From: a virus
IMG/VR virus record: IMGVR_UViG_3300005831_000046
Span: 1-33,404 of that record
Reading direction: 5' to 3' (one strand)
Length of the DNA stretch: 33,404 bases
Shown here one piece after another: positions 1,036-20,327 of this stretch. Below the pieces are notes generated by a model that saw nothing but the letters and a program-made list of their open reading frames with translations, was not told the DNA's origin and searched no databases. Each line of letters opens with the position of its first letter. The stretch's first letter is position 1. The translations under genes were made by a program, and so were the position numbers.

Positions 1036-1299
1036 TCATTCACGTTCTGCCCCTAATTGTTGTAAAACAAAGTTATCAATCGCGGTGTCGTCAGTTGTCC
1101 AATTAGCCTGAACATCCAACGGAATACCAAGTTTCAATCCTATAGAATTACCGTCCCAATTCTTAATTGGCTCACCGTCTTTGTAAAGAATTGCGACCAA
1201 GGTCAACGCCTCGCCTAAATTTGTCTTGTAATTCGGAATAGACCAATCTACCCCGTTGGCTCCCGAAAGCCCTAAATTAATTGGTTTAATGTTTATCAT
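1036..1299 (-). CDS. hypothetical protein downstream of tail fibre, 87 aa
   Basis: Begins at the ATG at 1299, which overlaps the stop codon of the fibre gene (TAATG); a longer frame to 1341 would overlap the fibre gene by 43 nt and is less likely. The product (MINIKPINLGLSGANG onward) is rich in N, G and aromatic residues, has no membrane segment, and looks like a small beta-rich virion or fibre-associated protein. No family recognised. Coupling to the fibre gene suggests a fibre chaperone or minor tail component. Confidence 0.6.
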   Translation of the reverse strand: MINIKPINLGLSGANGVDWSIPNYKTNLGEALTLVAILYKDGEPIKNWDGNSIGLKLGIPLDVQANWTTDDTAIDNFVLQQLGAERE

Positions 1300-3083
1300 T
1301 AGTTTCGATTTAAGTTTTGTTGTACTCTGAAATAATCCCATCTTGGGCGAGGTTCACCGCCCGCGCTTGCTACTTTGGCAACACCTAAATAAAGTGCTGC
1401 GTGATTTAATGTAGTGATTTTGCTTGATGGCGTTCCCGTTCCCTGAGATACCCCGTTTATCCAAAATTCGCAGGCGTGTGTGGATGCTGCTACTTTGAAT
1501 CTCAACACAAACCAAGTCGAAGTCGCGCTTCCTGAACTTCCGTTGATTGTTACTTGGTTAGAGGTTGTTCTGTATCGGAAAATCCAATTGCCTGAGTTAA
1601 CCCCTTGTTGGCGAGTGATAGCGACTGAATTATCAGGGTTAGGGTTAAAGAAAGAATTGGAAAGTCCAAATATGTCGAAGTAATCTTCAGTACCACTTTG
1701 CGCAAGTGATGCCGTTTGAATTATGAATGTCATATCCAATTCTCCTGCGTCTACCGTCCAACCCGAAGTTGCCCCGACATCCACCGTAGGGCAAATGTGC
1801 GCACGGCCTGAAAACGCCCCCGATGAAGTACCGGGACTTGGAAACGCAAACCCTGGTCTTCCTTCTACCACAGTGTTAGAGTATGAAAAGCCCGCCCCTG
1901 CACCGCTAATATAAGCCGTTAAACCGTCAGGCAATGTTTGTGCATAGAAATCAGTTTCATAAATAAACGAATCGCCAACCGTTGCAAGGTCTGTTCCGCC
2001 CGAAGAAATCACCAAATCCCCTGAACCCAAAACGCTTGTTCCGTTGATGGTCTTAATGTTAGTGCCACTTACTAAGGTAGCTTGCTTGCCTGCTAACGCA
2101 TCAAACACCGCATCTTCTGAAGGTGCGTTTGTGGTTACTCCGTTGGTTATGGTTTGGGTAATGTTTGCGCTTGTGAGGTAGCTTCCCGCTACTTGGTATA
2201 GCGTATCAAAGTAAGTTTTTAGGGTTGCCTTAATATTTGCCCACGTTACCTTTTTAAGCACGTTAGACGCTGCCGAATCAATTAAAGGTATAGTGTCAGC
2301 GTCTACGGGTGTAGTCTTCGCTGTTGCCCCGTGTATTGCGCTGCCTACGTTTCCTGCGTCCGTTACATCTGCCAAGGCTTCGATGCCGTCTAACTTGGTT
2401 TCGTCTGCGGTTGTGAATGACGCTGTGGTATTAGCGAGTACACTTGAATAGGCTTGAACATCTGACCCGATTTGTGCTGCGGTTAAGAGTTTACTTTTTG
2501 GGTTGCCGTCATTTTTGGCGTATAGTTCCCCATCATTGGCAGCCCATAAGCCCGTACTACTTGCGCTTACCGTAGGGTCTGCGCTTTGGTGCTTTAAATG
2601 GATATGACCTGCACCGCCCGTGCCGTTTATATTAACTGAGGTAAACGCGACATTTGTGCCTTCCGTTGCCTTAGTGTTTAACTGCGTTTGAATTGCAGAA
2701 GTAACCCCGTTAAGATATTGAAACTCCGCGTTGGATACCGTGCCATCCGCTATCTTGGCTGCGTCTATGCCCGTGGGTAGGTCACCCGCTGCAATTGTTA
2801 GGCTGTAAAATTCAAGTCCGCTTGCGTCCGCTTTTACCCGCACACCTTTGCCACCTTGTCCTGAATAAGATGCAGGAACATCGGTCAAATCCACAAAAGC
2901 AGATGCCCCACCGCCCGCGCTACCCCAATAGCTTAACGATGTCCATTGTCCCGTGCCGTTACCGACTTTAAATTTACGGGTATCGGTCTCCAAACCAACC
3001 TCGCCATCCGCTAAGATAGGGTTTGAACTTGTCCATTGTGACGCAGTACCGCGCCTTAGTTTTATAGTAATATATCCACTCAT
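1299..3083 (-). CDS. tail fibre / receptor-binding protein with Mtd-like N-terminus and lectin-like C-terminus, 594 aa
   Basis: Residues 1-55 (KLRRGTASQWTSSNPILADG, then VGLETDTRKFKVGNG) match the N-terminal module found on many phage fibres (major tropism determinant N-domain type). Residues about 85-380 are low-complexity fibre shaft with D/G/T-rich repeats (IDAAKIADGTVSNAEFQYLN, QTQLNTK, SAIHGATAK). From about residue 395 there is a beta-sandwich-like region (SFIYETDFYAQTLPDGLTAY, FEFWING-type EFWINGVSQG, ending in YFRVQ) typical of concanavalin/LamG-like carbohydrate-binding folds. It probably binds a host surface glycan. The shaft shares a module with the 1183-residue tail protein at 11231-14782. 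It overlaps the tail terminator gene by 4 nt. Confidence 0.8.
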   Translation of the reverse strand: MSGYITIKLRRGTASQWTSSNPILADGEVGLETDTRKFKVGNGTGQWTSLSYWGSAGGGASAFVDLTDVPASYSGQGGKGVRVKADASGLEFYSLTIAAGDLPTGIDAAKIADGTVSNAEFQYLNGVTSAIQTQLNTKATEGTNVAFTSVNINGTGGAGHIHLKHQSADPTVSASSTGLWAANDGELYAKNDGNPKSKLLTAAQIGSDVQAYSSVLANTTASFTTADETKLDGIEALADVTDAGNVGSAIHGATAKTTPVDADTIPLIDSAASNVLKKVTWANIKATLKTYFDTLYQVAGSYLTSANITQTITNGVTTNAPSEDAVFDALAGKQATLVSGTNIKTINGTSVLGSGDLVISSGGTDLATVGDSFIYETDFYAQTLPDGLTAYISGAGAGFSYSNTVVEGRPGFAFPSPGTSSGAFSGRAHICPTVDVGATSGWTVDAGELDMTFIIQTASLAQSGTEDYFDIFGLSNSFFNPNPDNSVAITRQQGVNSGNWIFRYRTTSNQVTINGSSGSATSTWFVLRFKVAASTHACEFWINGVSQGTGTPSSKITTLNHAALYLGVAKVASAGGEPRPRWDYFRVQQNLNRN

Positions 3084-15986: not shown

Positions 15987-16559
15987 GTCAATGGTTGCGT
16001 ATATTGCTAACCTCTCCCCATACATACGTGCCAGTGCGTCAGATATGATTTGCAAGTTCTCAGGCGTTAACACTTCGCGTATGAATCCCGAACCTTTATA
16101 CCCAAATCTCTTAACCGTGCCTTTTGCACCGATTGACCGCGCTATTGCAAATGCCATTCCGCGTCTTCTTTCCATGACTGACAACTTACTTTCGCCTTTT
16201 GACTTTCTCACGGGTATACCTTTAGCGGTTATCCATTCCTCAATACTTTTAATCGGTGGGCGTTTCCCGCGCTTGCGTCCGTACTCAAAGTATTTCCAAT
16301 GCTCCGAACCCATGACATTCGCCTGAATCAAATTCCCCGTTTGCGTCACCCTGCTCGCTTCTAATGATTGCAAAAGGTCGCGGGATGCTGTGCCTTTCTT
16401 TTCAAGTAATGACCTACGCAAGTCTTCCGTAATCATCTGAGCAGCGGTTTGAATTATCTGCTGCTCTGCGGTTAAGTTTGAAGGGTCGTATTTAGACGGG
16501 TCTTCCCCTAACGTGTCAAGTATGCCCGATGCGATGGCTTCAAGTTGCGCCTTGTTCAT
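15978..16559 (-). CDS. putative HK97-gp10-like tail completion protein, 193 aa
   Basis: Contains a basic central region (GSEHWKYFEYGRKRGKRPPI, then KSIEEWITAKGIPV) and a C-terminal half with FAIARSIGAKGTVKRFG, then SGFIREVLTPE. The pattern of YxxxGRxxGKxPP, EWI..KGI, AxxIARSIxxKGT and GFI is typical of HK97 gp10-type or neck proteins that join head and tail. It overlaps the frameshift extension of the tail chaperone by 4 nt (ATGA). The neighbouring genes are tail assembly genes, which fits. Confidence 0.7.
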   Translation of the reverse strand: MNKAQLEAIASGILDTLGEDPSKYDPSNLTAEQQIIQTAAQMITEDLRRSLLEKKGTASRDLLQSLEASRVTQTGNLIQANVMGSEHWKYFEYGRKRGKRPPIKSIEEWITAKGIPVRKSKGESKLSVMERRRGMAFAIARSIGAKGTVKRFGYKGSGFIREVLTPENLQIISDALARMYGERLAIYATIDAQ

Positions 16560-17343
16560 GTCATTAAATGTACAATTTCCTGAAGTATGGCAATTATGTA
16601 CCTCTCGTTGGATTTGTCAGCCCGTGCCATCCTTGCTGCCTCGGTCAACTTATCCGACAAGTCTTTTTTTCTTTTAATTAAAAGCGTTGCTGCGTTGAAA
16701 TATTCCACAAGGTTCATATTCCATATTGCCTCTACTCTCAAGGGGTCACGTTGGGCGAGTTGGTCCGTGATGTCAAGCCATATACTCCAGTCAGCTTTTC
16801 CACTTCCTCCCGTAAATAAGGAAGGATAGCCTTTAATGATTTGGTCAAGTACAGAGAAAAAAAAAGCAAATTACCCATTGCGATTTCAATAGAAAGGTGA
16901 TTCAGAAACAAGTCAGCCCGTGCCTCATAAGTCGCCACCAAGTCCTTAACCTTTTTCGGTTTGCCCATCCAATTTAACTCCACGGAAAGATAAGCAAGTA
17001 TCTTGTGGATGTTCTTGTATCCTTCTTCTTGGAATAGCTTTTGAACCGCTGCAAATTGGTGTGCGTTTAGTTCGTGTTTGTTCACGGTGAACTTATACCG
17101 TTTGCCTTTGAGTTTGAAAGGTCTGTTTTGCTCCTTACTTGGTGGAATGTCCATCCAATCCAATTTGGCGGTCAAGGCCTCCCTTTCCGCGTTTGGCATA
17201 GATTCGAAGTAGTCAAATTCTTTGCCCGTTAAAATAGACAATGCCCACATATCCTTGTCAACCTTTTCAAGTTCTTGGTTGATTTCTGCGAGTTGCAGGA
17301 ATTGTTTTATAGTGACTTGATGCCACCCTAATAAGCTGCCCAT
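16556..17343 (-). CDS. tail assembly chaperone, -1 frameshift product (gpGT-like), 262 aa
   Basis: The 201-residue gene 16738-17343 contains nine consecutive T on its coding strand (16865-16857), read as CTT TTT TTT TCT, i.e. a U-UUU-UUU slippery heptamer at codons 160-162. A -1 slip continues in a frame that stays open from 16858 to the stop at 16556. The new 100-residue extension begins FSVLDQIIKGYPSLFTGG, passes ADWSIWLDITDQLAQRDPLR and VEAIWNMNLVEYFNAATLLI, and ends VHLMT. Its amino-acid composition is clearly protein-like with no internal stop. Paired short and frameshifted chaperones are the rule in lambda-like and many other long-tailed phages (gpG and gpGT). The alternative is a homopolymer length error that splits one 262-residue gene. 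Confidence 0.7.
16561..16591 (-). promoter_or_regulatory. weaker candidate late promoter before 16559
   Basis: TAAATGTAC at 16565-16573 lies 5 nt before the ATG at 16559, as at the other late sites. It is inside the last codons of the chaperone extension, and the upstream block is poor (TATGGC at 16586-16591 rather than ATTGCGC), so this copy may be partly chance. Confidence 0.35.
16738..17343 (-). CDS. tail assembly chaperone, short form (gpG-like), 201 aa
   Basis: Zero-frame product. Mostly helical with FLQLAEINQELEKVDKDMWA near the N-terminus, a basic KLKGKRYKFTVNKHELNAHQ centre and a VELNWMGKPKKV stretch; after the slippery site it reads SLYLTKSLKAILPYLREEVE and ends in VTP. It resembles chaperone-region proteins of Bacteroidota phages by layout. 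It starts by overlapping the TerL stop by 16 nt. In related phages the short form is made in excess and guides assembly of the tube around the tape measure; here the tape measure gene lies 5 kb downstream. Confidence 0.65.
   Translation of the reverse strand: MGSLLGWHQVTIKQFLQLAEINQELEKVDKDMWALSILTGKEFDYFESMPNAEREALTAKLDWMDIPPSKEQNRPFKLKGKRYKFTVNKHELNAHQFAAVQKLFQEEGYKNIHKILAYLSVELNWMGKPKKVKDLVATYEARADLFLNHLSIEIAMGNLLFFSLYLTKSLKAILPYLREEVEKLTGVYGLTSRTNSPNVTP
16857..16866 (-). promoter_or_regulatory. U-UUU-UUU ribosomal slippery site
   Basis: Coding-strand C followed by nine T, read in the zero frame as CTT TTT TTT (16866-16858). XXXYYYZ with X=Y=Z=U allows both P- and A-site tRNAs to re-pair after a -1 slip. 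I did not find a strong hairpin immediately downstream by eye. Confidence 0.65.
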
Positions 17344-18521
17344 ATTCCGTTTCTGTTATTTATTTTACAATCCCATGCCAACGCTAAAGAGTTTACGCAG
17401 TCATCATGACTACCGTCAGGGGCTGAGAATTTCACCCGCCCTTGGTTGTAGATAAACTCAAAGCCCTCTAATTCGTCCTGCATTACGCCCGCTAAGATAG
17501 ATATTTCCCCGCTATTTATTGCAGTTGCCAGTCCTTCCATTAGTTGCTGCTTAGTTCGTACCCCCGCAGCGTAGTTAACCCCGATAACTCGCGGGCATTT
17601 ACGTGCTATGTCCTCTACAATGGGGTCACCCACACCCGTTGAATCTATGTGCGCCGCTGTCTTACCCACTACTGACATGATTCGTGTCTTGGTTTGCGCC
17701 CAATCTAATTGAAATCTGTCAAAGTAACTTACGCGCCCCGCCTTATCTAATCCCGTTATTACCGTCCAATCCGAATATTTGGCAAGGTCAACCCCATACG
17801 CCACCGTTGGTTCTTTGCTTATCTCCCGAATATTAGCCCGAATAGCCTGCAACCCAAAAGGATTAGACCCATCCTCGGACGGTTCTGCCAAATACAGCTC
17901 GTTAAATATCCATTCGGGAAGGTCGCGTTTAGCTTGTTCGATTTCCTCATAGGATAAAATGCCTTCCGCTGCTGCGTCATAGGCTGTGATTTTGTGATAC
18001 TCATAGCCCGATTCCCCATTCTTTGCCTTTACGCCTAACTTATAGCCCCAATTCTTTTTACCCTTTGCGTTGCCGATTAGCTTACATTTGCCCCCCGTTG
18101 CGGTTAGGGTTGAACGTAGCGCATACCACGCCTCTTCCCTTGCCCTTGTGAACTCGTCAAACACCGCAGCGTATACATCATCTCCGTAAAGGTTGTCGGG
18201 TTTCTCAGCGGACTTAAAATGTATCTCGGCTCCCGTTGGAAGGGTAAGTACTAACTTGGATTCGTTAGCCTTGAAAAAGTCCCGCACCGTTACTTGGTTG
18301 CGCATACGCTTAAATGCGATTTCCGCCTGACCGTAAACGGGAGCCACCCACCAAACCGACTGCCCTTTCTTTAATTTTAAGGATTCCTCAAATAGCCAAA
18401 TGATATGACTTGCCGTCTTACCGCATTTTGTGGCAGCCTCGCAAACCGTAAATCTTGCAGGGCTGTCTAACAATTTAACTTGGTAGCTGGTTAGGCTCGG
18501 TCTTTTGTAGTGGATTTGCAT
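17328..18521 (-). CDS. terL: terminase large subunit, 397 aa
   Basis: ATPase part: Walker A-like CEAATKCGKTAS (residues 27-38), coupling-type QSVWWVAPVYGQAE, and Walker B VYAAVFDEF (116-124). Nuclease part (RNase H fold): Asp in YGVDLAKYSD (D245), HIDSTGVGDP (D293) and DGSHDDCVNSLALA (D373/374), the usual metal ligands. It packages DNA into the prohead through the portal. Overlaps the upstream glycosyltransferase by 31 nt and the downstream chaperone by 16 nt. Length is short but within range for such terminases. Confidence 0.92.
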   Translation of the reverse strand: MQIHYKRPSLTSYQVKLLDSPARFTVCEAATKCGKTASHIIWLFEESLKLKKGQSVWWVAPVYGQAEIAFKRMRNQVTVRDFFKANESKLVLTLPTGAEIHFKSAEKPDNLYGDDVYAAVFDEFTRAREEAWYALRSTLTATGGKCKLIGNAKGKKNWGYKLGVKAKNGESGYEYHKITAYDAAAEGILSYEEIEQAKRDLPEWIFNELYLAEPSEDGSNPFGLQAIRANIREISKEPTVAYGVDLAKYSDWTVITGLDKAGRVSYFDRFQLDWAQTKTRIMSVVGKTAAHIDSTGVGDPIVEDIARKCPRVIGVNYAAGVRTKQQLMEGLATAINSGEISILAGVMQDELEGFEFIYNQGRVKFSAPDGSHDDCVNSLALAWDCKINNRNGIWAAY

Positions 18522-19513
18522 ATCCGTTCGTAAAATTGGAGACGCTTATAATTGATGTGTTCAATGTCAAAGAAAGCATGGCAATACGCATAGTTACTAT
18601 CCCCGTACTTCCCCGCCAATGACTTTGTGAATATGAATAGCTGCATCGCGTTTATCCAATCCAAGGTTGTGTTCTTGGTAAATAGAATGCCGTTGTTCTT
18701 TGTGTGTTCGCTGTATGGCTGAACATCTGAGGCAATAAGGGGTAACTTATACTCCGCACATTCAATCATTTTCAATTCTGACTTCATGCTGTTGTACTTG
18801 GTTTCTTCTAAGGGTGCAAGTGCAATGTCAAAGTTAGCGTATAGTTTGCCGTACTCATTCACTGGCACACCTTGATGCAATGTTACCGCTGTGAACTTCT
18901 TGGCAATCCTTTCCCAAATAGGTTCGTGTGGCATATAACCGCAAAGGTGGAACTCGATGTCGTACTTTTCTATACAGAAGTTAACCGCGTCAGCAATCAT
19001 ATTTAAGTCGTTCTCGTGGGTGATACCGCCTACCCATCCAAATCGTAGTTTATCAGAAGGTTGTTTTATAACCGCCCATTGTTCATCCGTCCACTCAATA
19101 GCGTTTGGGATAATTGATACGTTGTGATTCAGCGGGCGTATCTCTGCCGCCATTCTTTCCGTTGTGGTAGTCACCCCCGCTGCGTATCTGATAGCGTCCT
19201 TAATTGCGTTGGTAGTGTCGTTCTTTCTGAAATACTTATTGGCATGGTGATACTTTGGCAATCTCCAAAAATCGTCAATGTCCACAATGTAAGGGATGCC
19301 AAGTTCAGCTACCTTTTGTAAGAAAGGGTAATGGTCTTTGCCTAAGTCACGGTTGAATAGTATAAGGTCATAGCCTTGTAAGTCGGGAATTCCGCGCCCC
19401 TGAGCCATGTAGATTTCAACCTCAGGCGTGTCAATTTGCATCCTCATAAGGGGCTTGTATAATCGGTGGTAGTCCACCCCCGACATATTTTGGCAGATAG
19501 CTAATATTCTCAT
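18491..19513 (-). CDS. GT-B glycosyltransferase (GT4-like), 340 aa
   Basis: Rossmann-like N-terminal half (MRILAICQNMSGVDYHRLYK, YDLILFNRD, IPYIVDIDDFWRLP) followed by the second domain: IIPNAIE (134-140), LRFGWVGGITHENDL (156-170), FDIALAPLEE (228-237) and SELKMIECAEYKLPLIAS (245-262). The last block holds the ExxxxxE-like nucleotide-sugar binding region of GT4 enzymes. It lies between a lipoprotein gene and TerL and overlaps TerL, so it is made with the packaging genes. Substrate cannot be read; with the GT9-like enzyme and the methyltransferase nearby it may decorate a virion protein, host surface glycan or modified DNA base. Confidence 0.85.
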   Translation of the reverse strand: MRILAICQNMSGVDYHRLYKPLMRMQIDTPEVEIYMAQGRGIPDLQGYDLILFNRDLGKDHYPFLQKVAELGIPYIVDIDDFWRLPKYHHANKYFRKNDTTNAIKDAIRYAAGVTTTTERMAAEIRPLNHNVSIIPNAIEWTDEQWAVIKQPSDKLRFGWVGGITHENDLNMIADAVNFCIEKYDIEFHLCGYMPHEPIWERIAKKFTAVTLHQGVPVNEYGKLYANFDIALAPLEETKYNSMKSELKMIECAEYKLPLIASDVQPYSEHTKNNGILFTKNTTLDWINAMQLFIFTKSLAGKYGDSNYAYCHAFFDIEHINYKRLQFYERICKSTTKDRA

Positions 19514-19779
19514 TTGAAAGATATTGTTTGCCCTTGTATTGCTACCCCGTTAACTCTCACCATTACTTCGCCAGTGTCAGCGGTTGCGGTAAATCTTGCC
19601 CCGTTAAGTACGCCCGTCTGAACTATCTGCCCGTCCTTTAGACAACAGAAGTCCGTGTGTAGGTTATCTACTGACCAAACAATTGAGCCGTCGCCAATCT
19701 TGGTTACTTCGTACCATGTGGGCTTAACTTCCTCTTTCTTACATCCAAACATTAAAAGTGCGATTAGTAGGTATCTCAT
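19510..19779 (-). CDS. small lipoprotein with surface-export signal, 89 aa
   Basis: A short signal peptide (MRYLLIALLMFG) ends in Cys13, the predicted lipidated residue. Directly after it is KKEEV, so positions +2 to +6 fit the Bacteroidota lipoprotein export signal X-K-(D/E)2-X that sends lipoproteins to the outer face of the outer membrane. The mature part (~76 residues) is beta-rich, ending NGVAIQGQTISFK, with a single Cys pair (FCCL). It overlaps both glycan-enzyme neighbours by 4 nt. A phage-made surface lipoprotein could block superinfection, but no family is recognised. Confidence 0.75.
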   Translation of the reverse strand: MRYLLIALLMFGCKKEEVKPTWYEVTKIGDGSIVWSVDNLHTDFCCLKDGQIVQTGVLNGARFTATADTGEVMVRVNGVAIQGQTISFK

Positions 19780-20327
19780 TTTTTGATTATTACTTCGATG
19801 GAAAACTCCCCGTTTGCGTGTTCCTCAGGTCGGTCATGGTTGGTGCTGGTATCAATTACCTTCATTGAGTATTTAAACACCCCTGCTGCCTGCAATATGC
19901 CCTTCATGCTGAACGTGTGGGGCGGTTGACATTCGTCGGGCAAGTAGAAATATCTGTGGTCTTCGTTCCATCTACTCGGCAATGTCTTTTTTCTTTCATA
20001 TAAATCTCGATGTGGAAGGGAAATAATTACATGACCGCCAACCTTGCAGATACGCAACCAATTCTGAATGGCTGTAATGGGGTCGTCCAAGTGTTCGAGG
20101 ATGTGACTTGCATACACGTAGTCAAAATGATTGTGCGGGTATGCGTCCATTGTTGTCGCGTCGCAAATGTCTTTATCGTGATGTACGCAGTTTTCAAGTG
20201 CGATTGGGTCTGCCCCGTCGTGTGTATCTATACGCCCGCACCCGATGTCGATGCCGTAGCCTTGGATATACTTATCGTAGAATCCCGATTTAAGTCTGCG
20301 CTTATGCGCCTTTGATGTTTCCGCCAT
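19776..20327 (-). CDS. class I SAM-dependent methyltransferase, 183 aa
   Basis: Motif I is GYGIDIGCGR (residues 23-32), the acidic motif II region is HHDKDICDAT (49-58), and the DYVYASHILEHLDDP stretch (69-83) is the motif common in type-11 methyltransferases, followed by VGGHVIISLPHRD. No DNA methylase catalytic motif (DPPY or PC) is visible, so a small molecule, sugar or lipid-glycan is the likely acceptor. It overlaps TerS by 26 nt and the lipoprotein gene by 4 nt. Such genes are frequent beside glycosyltransferases. Confidence 0.85.
   Translation of the reverse strand: MAETSKAHKRRLKSGFYDKYIQGYGIDIGCGRIDTHDGADPIALENCVHHDKDICDATTMDAYPHNHFDYVYASHILEHLDDPITAIQNWLRICKVGGHVIISLPHRDLYERKKTLPSRWNEDHRYFYLPDECQPPHTFSMKGILQAAGVFKYSMKVIDTSTNHDRPEEHANGEFSIEVIIKK

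Follow-up and report, generated by a model that had tools for sequence, protein, structure and literature searches.

The tail assembly chaperone gene of phage lambda gives a short 0-frame protein, gpG, and a -1 fusion, gpGT, which share an N-terminus, the slip occurring shortly before the first ORF ends. Phage P2 has a comparable pair, gpE/E+E', with a -1 site of T_TTT_TTG; P2 gpE and gp41 of Mu are represented by the profile PF10109 (Phage_TAC_7). Transcriptional slippage at A/T runs of about nine is described for Shigella mxiE, Thermus dnaX and IS elements. Of these, mxiE slips at a U run (PMC1088944), and insertion of a U there connects two ORFs and leads to a longer product. These are, however, cellular, plasmid or IS genes, and a phage tail chaperone with transcriptional slippage was not found in the open-licence literature searched, where transcriptional slippage combined with tail assembly chaperones gave general papers only, and tail assembly chaperones combined with Bacteroidetes phages and frameshifting gave a general survey only.

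We analyzed viral DNA of 33,404 nucleotides (IMG/VR record IMGVR_UViG_3300005831_000046), referred to as the window, in which the two reading frames with their slip site, the gene for the terminase large subunit, the next gene and the tape-measure-like gene described below lie on the minus strand. An ORF for a 201-aa product (17343-16738) starts within the end of the gene for the terminase large subunit, TerL (17328-18521; PF03237 Terminase_6N, above the cut-off), which lies immediately upstream. It contains nine consecutive T's at 16865-16857, the only place in the window where one base is repeated without interruption nine times or more. The run is spanned by codons 160-163, CTT TTT TTT TCT, which is codon register 2 (NTT TTT TTT TNN), and it includes the heptamer T_TTT_TTT (16858-16864) in codon phase. 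After the run, the -1 frame reads FSVLDQIIKGYPSLFTGGSGKADWSIWLDITDQLAQRDPLRVEAIWNMNLVEYFNAATLLIKRKKDLSDKLTEAARMARADKSNERYIIAILQEIVHLMT and stays open for 100 codons (16858-16556) until a stop at 16558-16556. Residues 1-162 before the slip would thus be followed either by a 39-aa tail in the 0 frame or by the 100-residue extension, giving a predicted fusion of 262 aa, and the stretch 16857-16738 would encode both the 0-frame tail and the start of the -1 domain. The mechanical ORF list covered the extension only with a 61-codon ORF starting at TTG (16556-16741). An earlier sequence-only reading of this DNA had described the run and its codons, the 100 open codons, the tiny TTG ORF and the position right after TerL, and all of these were borne out.

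The next gene (16559-15978, 193 aa) begins before the -1 extension has ended. Its only match is a weak one to phrog_21534 (function unknown), and judged from its sequence the product resembles a gp10-type tail/neck protein. The same tail module includes a gene for a tape-measure-like protein of 683 aa (11234-9183; local match to phrog_24676, E 2e-11), about 5.5 kb further on from the putative chaperone gene. In a relative, the prophage L140 of Mucilaginibacter pedocola, the tape-measure-like gene stands just before the chaperone gene. In neither case, therefore, does the gene lie directly upstream of the tape measure gene; it follows TerL, whereas that of lambda adjoins the tape measure gene. 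Elsewhere in the window, glycosyltransferase and methyltransferase genes (18491-19513, 19776-20327) are located between the small and large terminase genes, and L140 likewise has a glycosyltransferase gene between its terminase genes. A 594-aa protein (1299-3083) with an N-terminal Mtd_N (major tropism determinant) domain is a probable tail fibre.

Searches with the 262-aa fusion itself (patterns against viral contigs, tblastn against phages) gave no matches because the protein diverges fast. Relatives were therefore gathered via TerL from viral contigs and genomes, and with a profile of the first domain from a sample of about 400 + 200 + 300 Bacteroidota genomes. The chaperone alignment was too diverse to serve for a pattern scan, and loci were scanned for a run of at least seven T's joining a 0-frame ORF to a -1 ORF. 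Such a run with a -1 extension was present in 232 loci (198 distinct sequences, 41 clusters at 50% identity), so the search for a conserved homopolymer in relatives, suggested in the earlier reading, had a positive outcome. The run was T9 in 185 of the 198 distinct relatives, T10 in 13 and shorter in none; loci from genomes contributed a further seven T9 and one T8 (L384). Among the first 137 loci (1.27 Mb), the coding strand outside the gene carried just five other T9 runs. Because the same run, at the same place and with the same -1 extension, recurs in 232 loci while other T9 runs are scarce, the association is more than chance. Three relatives (L062:5806, L065:5631 and L073:8186) have a second T9, a few hundred bases past the one in the chaperone gene.

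Isolates also carry T9 with the -1 extension, namely prophages of M. pedocola, Fibrisoma montanum (L141) and Spirosoma profusum (L158), and the cultured Nonlabens (Persicivirga) phages P12024S and P12024L (L213:23136-23827 and L217:1501-2195). In the Nonlabens phages the gene again follows TerL, but its sequence is very distant from that of the window, and their records split it into two hypothetical proteins, gp38/gp39 (P12024L_40/_41). Flavobacterium phage 6H (L214:9586-10927, minus strand) is a structural relative with the second domain in the -1 frame behind a stop; its gp10 was not counted as a T-run member, since the -1 frame stops directly after T_TTT_TTC.

Matches to the first-domain profile comprised 201 loci that combine a -1 extension with a run of at least nine T's, 14 truncated at a contig end, four single-ORF fusions and ten others. 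The ten were L097 and L376 (T-run members below the thresholds), L085, five of the L022 type, L221 and L224. In the four fusions (L014, L018, L023 and L024), the profiles of both domains match one ORF. By eye, L221, L223, L224 and L383 have one long ORF each and are probably fused as well. Because both parts are encoded in a single ORF in the four profile-matched relatives, the two parts of the window gene would make one polypeptide.

Whether the two frames are used was visible in codon-position variation, which we compared in twelve clusters (the site totals are our own sums). Before the run, 953 sites were variable at position 3 of the 0 frame, compared with 315 and 166 at the other positions (each of about 1750 sites; ~54% at position 3). 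Past the 0-frame stop, the excess was at the -1 wobble position, with 349 variable sites against 52 and 127 (each of about 663; ~53% at the -1 wobble). In the overlap, 125 and 122 sites varied at the two wobble positions and only 73 at the position that is wobble in neither frame (each of about 446). Across the site the wobble signal changes frame, from 0 to -1, and where the frames overlap both constraints apply; these patterns argue that both frames are translated and that their products are under selection at the protein level. Together with the single-ORF relatives, they lend support to the 201- and 262-aa products predicted earlier.

The length of the run was maintained independently of its register. 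An in-phase U_UUU_UUU heptamer was present in every T-run member, and the run began at codon position 1, 2 or 3 depending on the lineage, so that the T's in excess of the heptamer were two on the 5' side, one on each side or two on the 3' side; the length was nine in all three registers. The residue before the heptamer was F, one of V/L/I, or one of A/G/S/N/C according to the register, and since the flanking residues vary in this way, protein sequence does not explain the extra T's. Length nine occurred at 48 of 53 lineage/type points and at no more than 38 in 200,000 shuffles of the flanks, a comparison that does not give a true probability because the lineages are related. Register switches within a cluster were found in two clusters only. 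Between the close relatives L339 and L370, the run was displaced by one base through compensating changes with its length unchanged; such compensating substitutions set CTG TTT TTT TTT GTG against TTG GTT TTT TTT TCG. The second Phe codon was never TTC, a codon that these genes otherwise use commonly.

An uninterrupted A/T run of about nine was thus kept whatever the register, with three exceptions. One is L384, the only genome with eight T's. Another is L085, in which the run is interrupted and the canonical heptamer is lacking; there TTTTTTCTTT (L085:3927-3937) stands in place of the run, owing to two substitutions that do not alter the -1-frame protein but disrupt the heptamer of the 0 frame, and it is possibly a lost slip site. 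The last is the L022 clade, in which all five members (L022, L228, L229, L231 and L244) have no long run but an invariant GGA AAT TTT at the homologous place, which forms an in-phase A_AAT_TTT; L230 and L232, TerL cousins of this clade, have T9.

Two explanations would dispense with slippage during gene expression. Homopolymers are error-prone in sequencing, and some relatives do have a single ORF, so the run could be a mistake of sequencing or assembly, or the gene could be broken, with one ORF as the true gene. Nine T's recur, however, in some 200 sequences that were assembled independently, as well as in genomes of isolates and of two cultured phages, and the overlap is under dual-coding constraint; we consider this explanation extremely improbable. 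Long homopolymers are also typical switches, and replication slippage at the run might toggle the fusion between genomes by phase variation. Such toggling appears highly improbable in view of the constancy of the run, which is nine in 185 of 198 distinct sequences with no mixture of 8, 9 and 10 seen in populations, and in the L089 clade the T10, aligned with T9 relatives, differs by a C-to-T substitution, with no effect on how the frames relate.

For the agent of the slip, the ribosome and RNA polymerase are both candidates. If ribosomes made a programmed -1 shift on U_UUU_UUU, as they do in lambda G/GT and P2 E/E', this would be in line with known tail chaperones, which shift -1 on the ribosome (PMC5009743), with the annotated P2 site and with the heptamer being in phase in all T-run members; the extra T's would then be kept because a longer U run slips more readily on the ribosome, or for the sake of the protein sequence. 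The replacement of the run by the canonical A_AAT_TTT in the L022 clade suggests that slippage by the ribosome can work for this gene, and for that reason it stays a real rival. Seven T's would be enough for the ribosome, yet no run of seven turned up and only one of eight, and nine are kept over three registers with differing flanking residues. Stimulatory elements were not apparent either. Folding of the RNA after the run, a check proposed in the earlier reading, revealed no conserved structure, as simple minimum free energy windows after the run were not stabler than other parts of the gene (mean z +0.12, 28 clusters), and words resembling an SD motif upstream were present in only 2 of 28 clusters. 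We therefore regard a purely ribosomal mechanism as a serious possibility but not a probable one. The -1 event and the in-phase heptamer proposed by the sequence-only reading stand, while the ribosome as the agent of the slip was not established.

Transcriptional slippage is, in our judgement, the best-supported single mechanism, and it is moderately probable that it acts as the main route or as an equal partner of the ribosome. It is favoured by the conservation of length nine across registers, by the displacement of the run between close relatives at constant length, by the absence of the silent TTC from the second Phe codon and by the lack of a downstream structure or an SD-like motif: nine T's kept in three registers, where the heptamer needs seven, point to slippage of RNA polymerase on T9. 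The RNA:DNA hybrid is nine nucleotides long and slippage on A/T runs results mostly in +1 insertions (PMC5574713), and selection against A/T runs is evident from nine in many bacteria (PMC1088944). The run is thus as long as the hybrid and has the length at which selection against slippage shows. On this model, the frame change would occur at the uninterrupted run of nine T's, where the hybrid of about 9 bp would consist entirely of rU:dA, and RNA polymerase would slip back and add one U. The resulting mRNA with U10 would be translated ordinarily and would continue in the -1 frame. The majority of mRNAs would yield the short 201-aa chaperone and a minority the 262-aa fusion, which adds the second domain from the -1 frame, and slippage at the run would set the ratio of the two products. 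Ribosomes may contribute by -1 slippage on the in-phase U_UUU_UUU, as the two kinds of slippage can act together. Here we infer the function as a chaperone, the level at which slippage acts and its efficiency.

The gene belongs to a phage of Bacteroidota and probably helps to build the tail. We consider it quite likely to be a tail assembly chaperone gene from its neighbourhood, a sub-threshold match to Phage_TAC_7 in relatives, the predicted fold and the two-product design. Relatives of the L030 type matched PF10109 below the cut-off at residues about 28-64; such matches were found in 6 of 20 records, and control genomes matched too at that loose threshold. The window protein itself had no match in Pfam or PHROG, and its comparison with P2 gpE and Mu gp41 by hhalign was not significant. 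In P2 the shift comes directly after the matched segment, whereas here the run lies about 95 residues later. The AlphaFold2 model of residues 1-162 had a mean pLDDT of 91.5, and that of the naturally fused L023 a pLDDT of 61.6. A fold search against the PDB returned no match; against BFVD, the first domain matched many unnamed phage proteins, including one from P12024S, and gave a weak match (E 1e-2) to one bearing the name tail assembly chaperone.

The earlier comparison with gpG/gpGT found support for the two-product design and for a gpG/gpGT-like role; the position of the gene differs from that in lambda. As in lambda, a 0-frame and a -1-frame ORF overlap and the slip site comes late in the first of them; no sequence relation to the lambda proteins was seen, T9 takes the place of the lambda slip site, and slippage here may be at transcription. 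By analogy with gpG/gpGT, the short form would coat the tape measure protein, and the fusion, through its second domain, would recruit the tail tube protein; such binding, and absence from the virion, would be predicted features of the two products.

Current records, cultured phages included, split this gene into two hypothetical proteins, and T9 with a -1 ORF near TerL provides a simple rule for its annotation. We incline, if only slightly, to the view that a large and diverse group of Bacteroidota phages makes its chaperone fusion via polymerase slippage on a hybrid-matched T9, at times replaced by the A_AAT_TTT heptamer or by gene fusion, giving three routes in one family. In the literature that we found, frameshifting in tail chaperones was treated as ribosomal. 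If slippage is transcriptional here, RNA polymerase would set the product ratio that controls tail assembly, and one family would allow slippage in transcription, slippage on the ribosome and plain gene fusion to be compared in nature.
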